From Rhodospirillales bacterium (lineage in GTDB: Bacteria > Pseudomonadota > Alphaproteobacteria > UBA8366 > Aestuariispiraceae), in NCBI GenBank assembly GCA_002696645.1, contig NZSA01000028.1, positions 1-64,000 on the forward strand: 64,000 nt of DNA. Reading direction: 5' to 3'. Within the stretch, counting starts at the first letter, position 1. Every line of letters begins with the position of its first letter. Position numbers and translations under genes: made by a program. A model generated the notes under the pieces. It did no database searches, had not been told where the DNA came from, and saw only the letters and a list, made by a program, of their open reading frames with translations. Positions 2,914-47,295 of this stretch are shown in pieces.

Positions 2914-4605
2914 TCAGGATTGCGGAATGCCGCCTTGTTGCCAGAACCGGCACATCCGCGCGATGCGGGGATCAGATACCAGCCTGCACCCTGCCAGAAG
3001 CCCTTGTGTATCCTCCCCTTTGGCATGGGCCAGCTTTATTCGCATCGGATACAATATGTCATTATCCGACCCAAACTCTGCTTCTGCCGCAGCAAGGGTC
3101 TTGGTCGCGGCCTTATTATCCTTTGCCTGAATCTGACGGTCCATCAGCCCCTCATAAATGCGCAAGGGCGCGCCTTCCTGTTTCAAGGCATAGCGTTCGA
3201 ACCCAATAATCGCCAGATCGTTCTTGCCCTGCATTTGCCGCAGCGACGAAAAGGCGATGCGACCGAAGGCATTGTTTTCCAACCAGGACGCGCCGGAGAC
3301 ACCGACCTTTGCCTTCGCCAGGAGAGTATCGACCGTCTCACCATCGCTCAATTCACTCAACGATCCAACGGAGCCTAAAGCATCATGAACTTCTTGTGCT
3401 GCCGCGAATGCCGTCAAAGCGGCCTGCAATTCGCGGTCGGCAACGACTTTTTTGTAATCAGGCAATGGAAATTGCTGATCCAGGCCCAGTTCCAATCGAA
3501 CTTCTTCGAAGTCGTCATACTTAACGAATTCCGAATGGTCCAATAGCATGTCTTTACGCGCATCCGGGCTGGGATGGGATTCTTCCAGACTCTTCGCCAG
3601 GCTTTGCGCCATATCGCCACCGACACCTTTAAGGGCATCCATGATTCCATCCTTGCCGCCGCTGACACCCCCTTTGACCAGATCACCGGCAATGCGTTCT
3701 TTGTCCTGAGCCAGGGCCAGCACACGACTTTCAATTGTCGGCTGGTCCTTTAACTTATCCAGAAATCCACTTGCCCCGGCATACCCTTCGAATCCCGCCC
3801 GGGTGGCCAAATGAAGACCGACCATATCCGCTTCGTGTTCATCCTGACGACCCCATGAATATTCGAACAACACATCCATCGTGCGGTTAACCATCATCGG
3901 CGTCTTCAATTTGGAGGCTGCCTGAGCATCCGCACCATTATTGTTCAATACATCATCTGCAAGAAAGGCCGCTTCCAGCGCGGTACGGAAAATCCGGTTC
4001 CGCTTTTGCGTTGCCTGCCCCCGTTCATAATGCTTCAGCAGGATATGGCTGTATTCATGGGCAATTGTGAAAGCCAGGATATTCACGGCCTCCGGCGATC
4101 CATCAAAGCTTTCCACCGATATCTCGATCAGACCGTCCCGGTATACTCTGGCATCCCGCCCAGGCTTTGGAACGATCACGACTGTTGCCGGGACCGGATC
4201 AAAGGGCGAGCAGGCAACAATGCGATCCAAAATCTGATTGGCATAGTCTGTCGCCTTTTGAACCGGCCAAATCCCATATTCGGTTTCGCGAAGCTCCTGC
4301 TGACCCAGCGTAAAGTCGGACCGCAAGGAGGTTTTGGTCGCATCGCACGGGGCTGATGCATCCATCAGGGCCTCGGCATTTTCAACCTCATCCACATCAA
4401 TGTCGCGTTGACGGGATTGCACCAGTACCATGGGGTGGATTTCTGGATCTGCGGTATCCCCGAACAGCCCTGCCACGCTGTCGGTAACGCCCTGCATCGC
4501 GGAAGACATCGATCCCTCGCCAGAGCCATTGGTCGTGTTACAGGCTGCCAGGAACCCTACCAGTATCGAAGAATATGCCAGTCGTTGAAAATTGTGCCGC
4601 ATCAT
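2914..4605 (-). CDS. M48 family metallopeptidase, lipoprotein
   Basis: A 563-residue secreted zinc peptidase. The N-terminus MMRHNFQRLAYSSILVGFLAAC is a type II signal peptide with Cys at about 22, so the mature protein should be lipid-anchored in the envelope. HEYSH (HExxH) lies near residue 183, and EHEADMVG near 255 supplies the third zinc ligand. This is the Peptidase_M48 arrangement, as in BepA and LoiP. The C-terminal half is alpha-helical and repeat-like (AEAEFGSDND and similar segments), resembling the TPR region of BepA-type outer-membrane quality-control proteases. The start was chosen after GGGGGAG. It is the last gene of a minus-strand operon with a small exported protein and a CHASE2 protein; outer-membrane surveillance is an inference. 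Confidence 0.85.
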   Translation of the reverse strand: MMRHNFQRLAYSSILVGFLAACNTTNGSGEGSMSSAMQGVTDSVAGLFGDTADPEIHPMVLVQSRQRDIDVDEVENAEALMDASAPCDATKTSLRSDFTLGQQELRETEYGIWPVQKATDYANQILDRIVACSPFDPVPATVVIVPKPGRDARVYRDGLIEISVESFDGSPEAVNILAFTIAHEYSHILLKHYERGQATQKRNRIFRTALEAAFLADDVLNNNGADAQAASKLKTPMMVNRTMDVLFEYSWGRQDEHEADMVGLHLATRAGFEGYAGASGFLDKLKDQPTIESRVLALAQDKERIAGDLVKGGVSGGKDGIMDALKGVGGDMAQSLAKSLEESHPSPDARKDMLLDHSEFVKYDDFEEVRLELGLDQQFPLPDYKKVVADRELQAALTAFAAAQEVHDALGSVGSLSELSDGETVDTLLAKAKVGVSGASWLENNAFGRIAFSSLRQMQGKNDLAIIGFERYALKQEGAPLRIYEGLMDRQIQAKDNKAATKTLAAAEAEFGSDNDILYPMRIKLAHAKGEDTQGLLAGCRLVSDPRIARMCRFWQQGGIPQS

Positions 4606-4679
4606 CGCCTCCCCCAAGTTTACCCCTATCAAAAATATGCCTGCTGTTCGTCATCAGACGCGCCCCCACAGCAAACTCT

Positions 4680-17399: not shown

Positions 17400-17454
17400 A
17401 GCGGGAGCGGTATTTAAAAAAAGGTTTTTATTAAAACAATGGCCTTGATTCGGC

Positions 17455-17561
17455 TGGTTGCAACGGCAGGACTTGAACCTACATCTTTCCGCCCGTATGT
17501 TCCATTTGGCAATAGACACTACGTAGATAGCAGAAGCTTTATCCAGTTAAGCTACGTTGCA
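17455..17561 (-). tRNA. tRNA-like gene with 37-nt anticodon loop (about 30-nt insertion)
   Basis: On the minus strand the sequence folds as a class I tRNA. The acceptor TGCAACG (17561-17555) pairs with CGTTGCA (17465-17459), with A73 and an encoded CCA (17457-17455). T8-A9 is followed by the D-arm GCTT/AAGC with a nine-base AACTGGATA loop that keeps A14 and GG. The T-arm GTAGG/CCTGC has loop TTCAAGT, and the variable loop is AAGAT. The anticodon stem TCTGC (17534-17530) pairs fully with GCGGA (17492-17488), but 37 bases lie between them instead of seven. Removing 30 leaves a standard 77-base tRNA. An insertion at 37/38 would leave anticodon TCT with A instead of the near-invariant U33. The 5' end lies six bases after the stop codon of the HTH gene. 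Confidence 0.6.
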
Positions 17562-17567
17562 ATATAT

Positions 17568-18059
17568 TTACTCCGAAGAAACCACTTTCAATTTCGGCTT
17601 GCCTTTCCGTTTAGCACGGGCAGATTGTTCACGTTGTTTGTGAGCAATATCATCAAGTTTTTCTTGCGCATATGGAGCGGCGGCTTCAATCAAACCATCT
17701 AGGTGATACAAATTTGTCTTACTTCCTTTCCCAAAAATTCGTCGTTCTTCACGACGAATAAGGCCCCCTTTTTCGAGCGATGCAATTCGTCTTTGAACAG
17801 TTCTTGGGTCAATACCGATTGCATTAGCTATAGTCTTCTTTGATGGGTGAGGTTTGTTTTCCTCCGTCCACCAATAACTAGCCAAGTGAAGGATGATGTT
17901 TATATCAACCGCATCCAATCCCAGAGCTTGCTGTCGCTCAATAATGATACTTGGGATGGCAGTCCATCCAGCATTCATAAGTGGCTTCGACCACTTTTTT
18001 TCATTAACCTTTAACTGGTCTGTTTCATGTTTTTGAACATCCTCTTTTTTTGTCGCCAT
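17568..18059 (-). CDS. Helix-turn-helix (HTH_36-type) protein of unknown role
   Basis: A 163-residue protein with a central winged-helix DNA-binding domain: KKTIANAIGIDPRTVQRRIASLEKGGLIRREERR near residues 84-117. The upstream part (LMNAGWTAIPSIIIERQQ, then LDAVDINIILHLASYWW) is a recurrent pattern I associate with small HTH_36 proteins scattered in proteobacteria and mobile DNA. The C-terminus is strongly basic (REQSARAKRKGKPKLKV). The ATG follows AGAAGGA. The gene is AT-rich relative to both flanks. It is followed after six bases by the tRNA-like gene on the same strand and preceded by a hairpin array, so the three look like one unit. Repressor, replication-related and element-maintenance roles are all possible. 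Confidence 0.8.
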   Translation of the reverse strand: MATKKEDVQKHETDQLKVNEKKWSKPLMNAGWTAIPSIIIERQQALGLDAVDINIILHLASYWWTEENKPHPSKKTIANAIGIDPRTVQRRIASLEKGGLIRREERRIFGKGSKTNLYHLDGLIEAAAPYAQEKLDDIAHKQREQSARAKRKGKPKLKVVSSE

Positions 18060-18091
18060 TGTTTTGTTCCTTCTTCTGACTTTGTTAAAAT

Positions 18092-18122
18092 CCTATATGT
18101 GTCCATCACCAACAAAATGCAA
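18092..18122 (-). promoter_or_regulatory. Possible promoter of the HTH/tRNA-like unit
   Basis: Reading leftwards, TTGCAT (18122-18117) and TATAGG (18097-18092) are separated by 19 bases and lie 33 bases before the HTH start codon. The spacing is longer than ideal, so support is modest. If correct, the hairpin array lies upstream of the promoter, as an operator or separate element would, rather than in the leader RNA. Confidence 0.3.
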
Positions 18123-18128
18123 ACTATA

Positions 18129-18316
18129 CCGGGAGGCAACAGTGTCTAGGGCCCCTAAATAATTAGAGATTAGCTTAGGAATGTCTACGCTAGTTACGTC
18201 TGCATAGAATCGCGTATACTTCGCGAGGCACCGACGCCTCTCACCGGGAGACACTTAAGTCTCCGAGGGCCTAGACAATGATGTCTACTGGTAGGAGGCA
18301 CTGGTGTCTAGGGGCT
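18129..18316. repeat. Cluster of six short hairpins with shared TAGACA/TGTCTA core
   Basis: Short inverted repeats occur almost back to back: AGGCA/TGTCT (18134-18138/18143-18147), TCGCG/CGCGA (18210-18214/18222-18226), GAGGC/GCCTC (18225-18229/18236-18240), GGAGAC/GTCTCC (18247-18252/18259-18264), TAGACA/TGTCTA (18272-18277/18282-18287) and AGGCA/TGTCT (18296-18300/18305-18309). The first and last belong to near-identical direct repeats, GGAGGCAACAGTGTCTAGGG and GGAGGCACTGGTGTCTAGGG, 165 bases apart and bounding the array. No ORF explains the sequence. It could be an operator array for the HTH protein, a replication or recombination site, or a structured RNA. Confidence 0.6.
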
Positions 18317-18555
18317 ATTCCAAAAAAACTTCAATTTAATACTCGCCAGAGAATTTTGCCGCACTGCTATAGCTAAATTCAGCTTTATAAATGTATCTCT
18401 AAATTTACACAGCAACGCTACCGCCATCAAATGAGAACTCGTACCTCGGTCAGTTATTGCCAGCCTTAGTTTGGGACAAAAGGGCCGTTGGTAGCTGCAG
18501 CATTTAAGTCTAAGCTGATGTCCGATCAAACTGGCCCTCCAATTGAAAGACGACA
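18317..18555. other. AT-rich non-coding stretch before the M20 gene
   Basis: No gene, terminator or tRNA is supported here. A minus-strand reading frame of about 80 codons spans it but shows no recognisable family and starts inside the M20 gene. A degenerate transposase tail was considered and not supported. The stretch probably holds the promoter of the M20 amidohydrolase gene, although no clear -35/-10 pair stands out. Confidence 0.4.
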
Positions 18556-19725
18556 ATGTCCAGTCCGACCGATCTTCAGGAACAGATGACCCGATGGCGT
18601 CACGACCTGCATGCCCACCCTGAATTCGGATTCAGTGAGAAGCGTACCGCCGCCTTTGTCGCCGCGAAACTGCGCGAATTCGGATTGGATGATGTCACCG
18701 AAGGGGTTGGCGGGACAGGCGTTGTTGGTACTTTGAAACGGGGCACCGGCAACCGTGCGATTGCCTTGCGGGCCGATATGGATGCGCTGCATATCACCGA
18801 ACAGGGCAGCCTGCCCTATAAGTCGACCCATGACGGCTATATGCATGCCTGCGGTCATGATGGGCACACCATCATGCTGTTGGGCGCGGCCAAGACCCTG
18901 ACCCAGCAGGAAGGGTTTGATGGCACGATCCGGTTTATCTTCCAGCCAGCGGAAGAATGGGGCCAAGGCGCGATAGCAATGATCAACGATGGCCTATTGG
19001 ATCGCTTCCCGTTCGAAGAAATTTACGGTCTGCACAATATGCCAGGCTATCCGATCGGCCAATTTGTGACGAAGCCGGGCGCGATCATGTCTGCGGAAGA
19101 TGTTTTTGAAATCACCCTGCGAGGCGTCGGGGGCCATGCGTCCAGACCGCATTCTGGCAGTGAAACACTGGTCGCCGCCTGCGCCCTGGTCACCAATCTA
19201 CAAACCATCGTCTCTCGACGGGTCGATCCAACAGCAGTCGCGGTGGTATCGGTTACTGAATTGACCACCGACGGCACCCGCAATGTCCTGCCAGGCCAGG
19301 CACAAATCCGGGGTGATGCCCGCAGCTTTGACCCAGCCGTCAGCGCACAGATCGAAAAGCAGATGCGCCTGATCGCCGAAGGGACGGCGCTCTCCTATAA
19401 TGTCAGTGTCGACGTCAATTATGCCCGGGAATTCATCTCTCTGTTGAATGACGAGGCCCTGACCCAGGAAGCCCTGAATGCGGCCAGGGATGTGCTAGGG
19501 TCGGATGCCGTTATGATTTCCGACGAACCCATCACCGCGTCAGAAGACTTCGCCCAGTTCCTGCGCCATGTGCCAGGATGCTTTGCCTTTCTGGGCAATG
19601 GGGAGGACTCCCTGCCACTGCACAACCCCAACTATGATTTCAACGATGCCAGCCTGACCGCCGGGGTCGCATTCCACACCGCCATCGCCCGCCGTCGCCT
19701 GCCCCTAGCGACCCCACGAGCCTAA
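18556..19725 (+). CDS. M20 family amidohydrolase (hippurate hydrolase-like)
   Basis: A 389-residue metal-dependent amidohydrolase of the M20D group (HipO, N-acyl-amino-acid and indole-3-acetyl-amino-acid hydrolases), which cleaves N-acyl amino acids. Metal-site motifs are ADMDALHI near residue 74, MHACGHDGHT near 96-105 (Cys and His ligands), PAEEWGQGA near 133 and the late ASEDFAQFL near 322. The dimerisation-domain motif GGHASRPHSG is near 195. Length is normal. It lies just beyond the AT-rich patch and may belong functionally with the acyl-CoA ligases upstream, for example by releasing acids from conjugates, but that is inference. Confidence 0.92.
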   Translation: MSSPTDLQEQMTRWRHDLHAHPEFGFSEKRTAAFVAAKLREFGLDDVTEGVGGTGVVGTLKRGTGNRAIALRADMDALHITEQGSLPYKSTHDGYMHACGHDGHTIMLLGAAKTLTQQEGFDGTIRFIFQPAEEWGQGAIAMINDGLLDRFPFEEIYGLHNMPGYPIGQFVTKPGAIMSAEDVFEITLRGVGGHASRPHSGSETLVAACALVTNLQTIVSRRVDPTAVAVVSVTELTTDGTRNVLPGQAQIRGDARSFDPAVSAQIEKQMRLIAEGTALSYNVSVDVNYAREFISLLNDEALTQEALNAARDVLGSDAVMISDEPITASEDFAQFLRHVPGCFAFLGNGEDSLPLHNPNYDFNDASLTAGVAFHTAIARRRLPLATPRA

Positions 19726-46257: not shown

Positions 46258-47295
46258 CTATCGCACGCGAATTCGAGGATTGAGGTAGGCATATCCAATA
46301 TCGGATATCATCTGGGTCGACAGAACGACCAGAACTGAAACGATTGAGCAGCTTAGCAGCATATCAATATCGTTGTTCCCTGCCGCTTCAACCAATACCC
46401 AGCCAAACCCCTGATAACGGAACATAACCTCGACGATGACAACGCCCGTCAGCAACCAGGGAAATTGCAGCATGATAACCGTGAAGGGGGCGATCAGGGC
46501 ATTACGCAATGCATGGCGCAGCACCACGGTGTGAAACTTCAGACCTTTCAGTCGGGCGGTCCGGATATATTGCGAGGTCATGACTTCCGCCATAGAGGCC
46601 CGCGTCATGCGCGCAATGTAACCCATGCCATAGATGGCCATCGTCATTACCGGCAGGGAGAAGTTATAGAATGTCGGGCCTTGCGTAGTCGCAGTTACCG
46701 CCGATCCATTCAGCCAGCCAAGCCAGGACGCAAAAATAACCGTAAAGACAACACCAGACACATATTCCGGTGTGGCTGTGGACGTAATGGAAACGACAGA
46801 AAGTGCGCGGTCCGTATTCGTCCCCTCACGCATTCCAGCCAAAATTCCGATTACCAGGGCAGACGGAACCATCGTCACCATAACCCAGAACATCAAAATA
46901 CCGGTAGCCTGTAATGCAGGCAAAAGCCTTTCATGGATTGGCTGCCGAAACATCGTCGAACACCCCAGATTGCCCTGCAGAATACCGGAATAGGTCGCAA
47001 ATGGAGGTTCGTCACAGAAGGTAAATCTTGGTTTTGGCTCTCCCGTATCAACGTCACGCGCGGGTTGCTTTTCCATAACGCCCAACCACTGCGCATAACG
47101 TTCCAGGAACGGTTCTCGATACCCGTTATAGTCCAACCAACGTTCAATCATCTCATCAGACGCGCGCATGTTTGTCTGGCTAATGGACAGTTTTCGAAGG
47201 TTCGGTTCCAGATTGACCAGAAAAAAAACAATGAGCGTCAGGCACAGCATCGTCAGAAGCATGGCCCCAAAACGATTGGCTAACAAACGAAGCAT
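46258..47295 (-). CDS. Oligopeptide-type ABC permease (DppB-like)
   Basis: A 345-residue permease. The N-terminus MLRLLANRFGAMLLTMLCLTLIVFFLVNLEP is the typical DppB/OppB first helix; GILAGMREGTNTDRAL, YIARMTRASMAEVMTSQYIRTARLKGL (about 225-252) and LRNALIAPFTVIMLQFPWLLTGVVIVE follow. A roughly 75-residue periplasmic insert after helix 1 (WLDYNGYREPFLERYAQWLG) is usual. It is separated from the binding-protein gene by 135 bases that contain a perfect hairpin. Confidence 0.93.
   Translation of the reverse strand: MLRLLANRFGAMLLTMLCLTLIVFFLVNLEPNLRKLSISQTNMRASDEMIERWLDYNGYREPFLERYAQWLGVMEKQPARDVDTGEPKPRFTFCDEPPFATYSGILQGNLGCSTMFRQPIHERLLPALQATGILMFWVMVTMVPSALVIGILAGMREGTNTDRALSVVSITSTATPEYVSGVVFTVIFASWLGWLNGSAVTATTQGPTFYNFSLPVMTMAIYGMGYIARMTRASMAEVMTSQYIRTARLKGLKFHTVVLRHALRNALIAPFTVIMLQFPWLLTGVVIVEVMFRYQGFGWVLVEAAGNNDIDMLLSCSIVSVLVVLSTQMISDIGYAYLNPRIRVR

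Follow-up and report, generated by a model that had tools for sequence, protein, structure and literature searches.

A proteobacterial family of tRNA-like genes with arginine identity marks and a hairpin in place of the anticodon loop, probably used outside decoding

A 64,000-nucleotide (nt) stretch of contig NZSA01000028.1 from a Rhodospirillales bacterium (assembly GCA_002696645.1), hereafter called the window, was found to carry a transfer RNA (tRNA)-like RNA of 107 nt, including an encoded CCA, at positions 17455-17561 of the minus strand. Eighteen further copies were identified on plasmids, chromosomes and viral contigs of Proteobacteria. Comparison of the sequences showed a proteobacterial family that is predicted to combine a complete tRNA body and a 7-base-pair (bp) anticodon stem with a bulge containing C35 and U36 or G36, and with a covarying hairpin that replaces the remainder of the anticodon loop. 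The family and its predicted fold are well supported by this comparison, from which we infer the biochemical role: the members are probably tRNA look-alikes that are used for something other than decoding. With moderate confidence, we read them as non-decoding mimics of tRNA-Arg that would be processed by RNase P, recognised by arginyl-tRNA synthetase (ArgRS) and carried by plasmids and plasmid-derived islands.

The original prediction had described every part of a class I tRNA on the minus strand from 17561 to 17455, and the coordinates, the strand and each named part were confirmed. The element contains the acceptor stem TGCAACG/CGTTGCA, T8 and A9, a D-arm (17536-17552) with the D-stem GCTT/AAGC and the residues G18, G19 and A20, a T-arm (GTAGG TTCAAGT CCTGC, 17466-17482) and the discriminator A73, followed by CCA. 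The covariance check suggested at that time gave a match to the Rfam tRNA model (RF00005) at 17561-17458 with 45.3 bits against a gathering threshold of 29 and an E-value of 1.9e-6, in which 36 nt were left unaligned within the anticodon loop. ARAGORN detected no tRNA in the window without introns; once introns were permitted, it reported an intron-bearing tRNA-Arg. In the same prediction, the anticodon loop had been given as 37 bases on a five-pair stem; the 30-nt insertion stood, whereas the open loop did not. The 37 nt are structured, with a 30-nt extension hairpin (17494-17523; CGTA/TACG and then TCTATT/AATGGA in the minimum free energy fold), inserted at the tRNA 37/38 position, stacked on a 7-bp stem (5' strand TTCTGCT, 17529-17535; 3' strand GGCGGAA, 17487-17493). 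The sole gap is a 5-nt bulge on the 5' side (ATCTA, 17524-17528), corresponding to A33, U34, C35, U36 and A37 in tRNA-Arg numbering; all of these parts lie on the minus strand. Deletion of the 30 nt at 37/38 gives the loop UAUCUAG, with the Arg anticodon UCU and A37 but with A33 instead of U33, in agreement with the earlier remark that U33 is not restored by such a removal. With its 30-nt loop hairpin and A33, the element lacks the 7-nt, U33-bearing decoding loop of RF00005. Of 200 dinucleotide shuffles of a 109-nt stretch, 198 folded less well than the native sequence (z -2.2), and the recurrence of the predicted fold, with covariation, in the 18 other sequences places it far beyond chance.

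The members were collected by three partly independent routes, namely adjacency to relatives of the helix-turn-helix (HTH) protein encoded upstream of the window element, a covariance model, and a DNA pattern or BLAST. A tblastn search of plasmids with the HTH protein revealed close relatives, several of which had a similarly inserted tRNA-like sequence downstream. Such sequences were found behind the HTH gene in Methylocaldum, Bradyrhizobium (pUSDA94-1 and pUSDA94-2), Caulobacter, Spongiibacter and Xanthobacter and, in a more divergent form, in Paraburkholderia. The Paraburkholderia sequence (L048), which has the HTH gene, a longer insertion and A20, aligned poorly, with a score of 44-49 bits, and is not among the members counted here. 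In Methylobacter, which was reached by BLAST with the RNA, the HTH gene is accompanied by two tandem tRNA-like copies. Model R1, built from eight sequences among which was the window element (91.6 bits), was used to search alphaproteobacterial genomes and yielded L054, L056, L057 and L058. Upstream of these lie, respectively, a short open frame with a stretch that by eye resembles the HTH C-terminus of L087, a 65% identical HTH gene, a distant HTH gene whose stop codon is overlapped by the tRNA-like sequence, and a gene of the DGQHR/DpdB/DndB kind. The DNA-pattern search gave L085, L141 and two copies with the HTH gene, L087 and L120, the latter a viral contig. Further members came from BLAST and protein searches: S. 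meliloti pRm1132f, in which the HTH gene is split into two annotated frames with a C-terminal part 75% identical to that of L087, Methylosinus pMSC49d, and a plasmid of Acidisoma on which the upstream gene is a different one, encoding 102 amino acids. One candidate, L163 from Methylomagnum, was rejected as it proved to be an ordinary tRNA-Ile/Ala pair.

The resulting alignment, A5, contains 19 members including the window copy, and model R2 was built from it. Sequences outside the R1 training set scored 63-99 bits with R1, and with R2 the members scored 71-101 bits, compared with at most about 64 bits for ordinary tRNAs. The family is rare: a clear copy was present in at least 4 of 398 sampled Pseudomonadota genomes and at least 5 of 385 alphaproteobacterial genomes, both counts being lower bounds because the scan scored about 10 candidates per genome.

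In A5, which was aligned to the structure under test, 93.4% of the pair cells were standard pairs, and both sides had changed in 25 of the 31 pairs. The covariation score was 0.547 versus 0.210 in shuffles, and no shuffle among 500 equalled the alignment in any of the five measures. When the partner was slid by one to three columns, pairing fell to 38-52% and the score to 0.09-0.20. The original prediction had made itself dependent on conservation and covariation of the fold in relatives. Both were observed across the 18 other sequences, as the anticodon stem (helix 3) had changes on both sides in all seven pairs with 96.9% of its cells paired. Helix 5 of the T-arm was 100% paired, and compensatory changes were found in nine of the nine pairs of the extension helix. 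Run on A5, RNAalifold recovered the cloverleaf unaided, and with it the 7-bp anticodon stem, but not the extension helix, which varies in length and is present in the single-sequence folds of most members. The window copy matches the family exactly in its bulge and in its position after the stop codon, and its extension helix is partly unpaired in the A5 register. As a separate observation, L036, L056, L087 and L161 form a subtype in which the two sides of the extension arm carry GAAA (5') and AGTA (3'), an arrangement like that of a loop E or sarcin-ricin-like internal loop.

To a decaying tRNA gene with a chance insertion we give hardly any probability. The window copy has no U33, and the two-gene unit of HTH gene and tRNA-like sequence is patchily distributed, both of which would suit decay. 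It is contradicted, however, by stems that are all intact, with compensatory changes in relatives, and by a single insertion site shared across 19 copies. The host genome contained 46 ordinary tRNA matches, including Arg ACG, CCG, CCT and TCT. When the element was compared outside the anticodon arm with the 42 distinct host tRNAs, the best identity was only 42/59 (Arg-TCT and Pro-GGG tied), and every stem was intact despite this low identity. The window element thus showed neither the scattered, stem-breaking mutations nor the close likeness to a host tRNA that mark a pseudogene, and a decaying copy of a host tRNA, the other outcome against which the prediction had been set, did not appear.

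The hairpin lies at the canonical 37/38 intron position, and this also suits an intron-containing tRNA-Arg, in which a protein enzyme would excise the hairpin and ligate the halves into a working tRNA-Arg(UCU or UCG). Removal of the hairpin leaves an Arg anticodon in most members, U33 is present in 12 of the 19, and CCA is often encoded. Splicing is nevertheless less likely, and we consider it an unlikely explanation overall, because the structure lacks a bulge-helix-bulge (BHB) motif (the 5-nt bulge is one-sided and the consensus has no 3' bulge), splicing would still leave seven of the 19 copies without U33, and neither the PF01974 tRNA splicing endonuclease (EndA) nor the RtcB ligase was found in the host genome (assembly 98% complete; controls positive). 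Additionally, the stem would still be 6-7 bp long after removal, and the host set of Arg tRNAs is already complete. A group I or II intron core was also not seen in the 30-nt insertion, and no further Rfam family over the element reached threshold or was credible. Of the two outcomes that the original prediction had allowed, a tRNA awaiting unusual processing is therefore disfavoured; a non-decoding tRNA mimic gains support from the conserved fold with its compensatory changes, the retained tRNA elbow and arginine marks, and the unkept U33.

The arginine marks were consistent across the family. GGA at positions 18-20 was found in all 19 members; its A20, the main bacterial arginine identity element, was present in all four Arg tRNAs of the host and in none of its 38 other tRNAs. 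The bulge follows the consensus N-N-C-[U/G]-A, with C35 in 19/19 members, U (15) or G (4) at position 36 and A37 in 16/19, whereas U33, which decoding requires, was kept in only 12/19. Additionally, G2-C71 was found in 13/19 and C3-G70 in 16/19. Bacterial arginine identity has been described as A20, C35, U/G36, G2-C71, C3-G70 and A/G73 (review PMC9976931), and the window element carries A20, C35 and U36 of this set. Among the ordinary tRNAs that scored best with the family models, 33 of 41 were tRNA-Arg, a proportion due in part to the UCUA within the models. This pattern fits synthetase recognition that is retained without decoding being retained.

Several points weigh against the proposed tRNA-Arg mimic. 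Most members have the discriminator C73 and not the ArgRS-preferred A/G73 (the window copy has A73), and charging may therefore be weak. The Arg numbering presumes a 6-7-bp stem; if 5 bp are counted strictly, the invariant C of some members becomes position 36. A20 was required of the members found by the DNA pattern (L085, L087, L120 and L141) and R1 favours a UCUA bulge, so that the counts of these marks are partly conditioned, although the copies found by HTH adjacency (L034, L036, L038, L040, L047, L161 and L162), of which no motif was demanded, have the same A20, C35 and U/G36. The covariation counts lean towards the structure to which A5 was aligned. Finally, L058, L085, L141 and L166 are not behind an HTH gene.

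In nearly all members, the distance from a stop codon to the start of the tRNA-like sequence is -2 to 13 nt, the exception being the second tandem copy in L035. The upstream gene, on the same strand, is mostly an HTH homologue and otherwise a DGQHR/DpdB-like gene or the gene for the 102-residue protein; the upstream genes differ, and the position is therefore more conserved than the partner. The frames upstream of the L085, L054 and L141 copies are short ones that may not represent genes. In most members, CCA is encoded at the expected place or at most one base off. The start close behind a stop codon and the variety of upstream genes are both what would be expected of an element that serves mainly in 3' processing and stability: an RNase P cut at its 5' end would set the point at which the upstream mRNA ends, and ArgRS would play no part. 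We regard this as improbable, since the invariant A20, C35 and U/G36 and the conserved extension arm would be left unexplained.

For the tRNA-Arg mimic that we favour, the following mechanism can be proposed. The tRNA-like sequence would be co-transcribed with the upstream gene, and RNase P would cut at its 5' end, releasing a stable RNA and ending the upstream mRNA at the cut, while its 3' end would carry or receive CCA. A20, C35 and U/G36 would let ArgRS bind and possibly charge the RNA, and the hairpin, together with the frequent loss of U33, would bar it from decoding. In the least certain step, the RNA might titrate or report the status of ArgRS or arginine and so control the upstream gene or the plasmid.

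The gene upstream of the window element (17568-18059, minus strand) encodes a 163-residue winged-helix protein of the HTH_36/DnaD-N/phage O-like type, and 6 nt separate its stop codon from the tRNA-like sequence. The protein matched Pfam HTH_36 and DnaD_N and PHROG replication-initiation O-like families, and a profile match to DnaD in the PDB had an E-value of 4e-5. Both genes lie in a patch of low guanine-plus-cytosine content (17400-18555; 43% versus approximately 59% in both flanking genes), and the flanking genes look chromosomal. A search of 58 relatives, five of them of the same genus, detected neither the tRNA-like sequence nor the HTH protein, and we read the two genes as an acquired unit. 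A clean empty site in the nearest relative (G005) was considered and rejected: synteny breaks just upstream of the hydrolase gene (18556-19725; 91% DNA identity in G005), so that no precise insertion could be demonstrated. A scan of the two-gene unit for promoters and terminators gave matches no more numerous than in shuffles, and a peptide-pattern search of viral contigs gave no relatives of the HTH protein.

Many HTH homologues have no tRNA-like sequence, and the next gene varies: it encodes a PemK/MazF-like protein in L041 and L042 and unknown proteins in others. HTH homologues also occur on small E. coli plasmids, of which p9705, the sole one read, had no tRNA-like sequence downstream. Because its homologues precede varied other genes, the HTH gene appears to be a portable lead gene with several cargoes, the tRNA-like sequence among them. 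These neighbourhoods bear on a further explanation, in which the RNA is a decoy or immune tRNA of a mobile element that titrates anticodon nucleases or colicin D-like toxins directed against tRNA-Arg, or the RNA component of a stability module akin to toxin-antitoxin systems. The plasmid neighbourhoods include restriction, Abi, RelE/PemK and resolvase genes, and HTH homologues without the tRNA-like sequence precede PemK-like or AbiD-like genes; yet the neighbours vary, no nuclease or toxin is consistently adjacent, and we consider this explanation very unlikely.

Some other features were observed in these settings. In place of a tRNA-like sequence, two HTH homologues on Agrobacterium and Shinella plasmids (L039, approximately 4475-4640; L043, approximately 4475-4635) have behind them a GC-rich stretch resembling a hairpin RNA, together with an AbiD/PD-T4-5-like gene, a likeness tested for L039. 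In an alphaproteobacterial metagenome-assembled genome (L003), an ordinary tRNA-Arg(TCT) at 1824-1899 lies on the opposite strand approximately 150 bp from a distant HTH homologue. Viral contigs from IMG/VR contained another tRNA-like set with approximately 35-45 extra nt in the anticodon arm (L088, 5452-5564; L089, 2120-2236; L131, 7672-7788), to which L106, L122, L130, L133 and L142 also belong; this set shares a CTTGT-hairpin-ACAGCAA motif, and no HTH homologue was detected on its contigs. In other viral tRNA-like genes of IMG/VR (L090, 1997-2096; L098, 5742-5841; L137, 352-463), the anticodon stem is prolonged into a long hairpin, with most of the CTTCT segment paired as well; the Rfam tRNA model was positive where tested (L098). 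Elsewhere in the window, 46503-46681 on the plus strand matched Rfam Cis52_sRNA with 57.9 bits against a gathering threshold of 56.

Among known systems, the bacterial tRNA-Arg (UCU/UCG) is similar in its cloverleaf, A20, C35, U/G36 and A37, and it supplied most of the top-scoring ordinary tRNAs. In contrast, the family has a 7-bp anticodon stem, a hairpin of approximately 30-40 nt at 37/38, unconserved U33, mostly C73 and a tie to an upstream gene on plasmids. The insertion position is shared with 37/38 tRNA introns, which are enzymatic in archaea and eukaryotes and of group I or II in bacteria, whereas the family has no BHB motif or group I/II core, its insertion is 30-40 nt long, and its host lacks EndA and RtcB. 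Plant viral tRNA-like structures (TLS) stand at the 3' end of RNA genomes, usually with rebuilt acceptor arms; the family is bacterial and DNA-encoded, and its acceptor arm is normal whereas its anticodon arm is altered. It resembles the aminoacylatable TLS of plant RNA viruses in a tRNA mimicry that would keep synthetase identity outside decoding (PMC9976931). Allo-tRNAs and irregular tRNA genes are likewise non-canonical bacterial genes linked to mobile elements and have been suggested to be part of transposable elements or toxin-antitoxin systems (PMC7609411). Those genes, however, are altered in their acceptor/T domains (8/4, 9/3) and have serine identity, and the family has a normal acceptor/T domain and arginine marks. 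No description of a plasmid tRNA-Arg mimic, of short bacterial tRNA introns or of an HTH/tRNA link was found in the open-access literature, and we provisionally regard the family as undescribed so far.

Bacterial tRNA genes have been considered surprisingly uniform, with group I and II introns as the sole significant exception (2014 review, PMC4033280). That picture is broken by the present family, which is mobile and covarying, bears arginine marks, has a rebuilt anticodon arm and escapes ARAGORN at default settings. Tentatively, and at somewhat less than even confidence, the family may represent a new plasmid-borne RNA class that keeps ArgRS recognition, substitutes a hairpin for the decoding loop and ties plasmid gene expression or host fate to ArgRS or arginine status, as a DNA-encoded bacterial counterpart of viral TLS. 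Small natural carriers, pRm1132f (7.2 kb) and a Spongiibacter plasmid (12.7 kb), make the family directly testable, and it provides a concrete RNA with which to ask whether plasmids exploit synthetases or RNase P.
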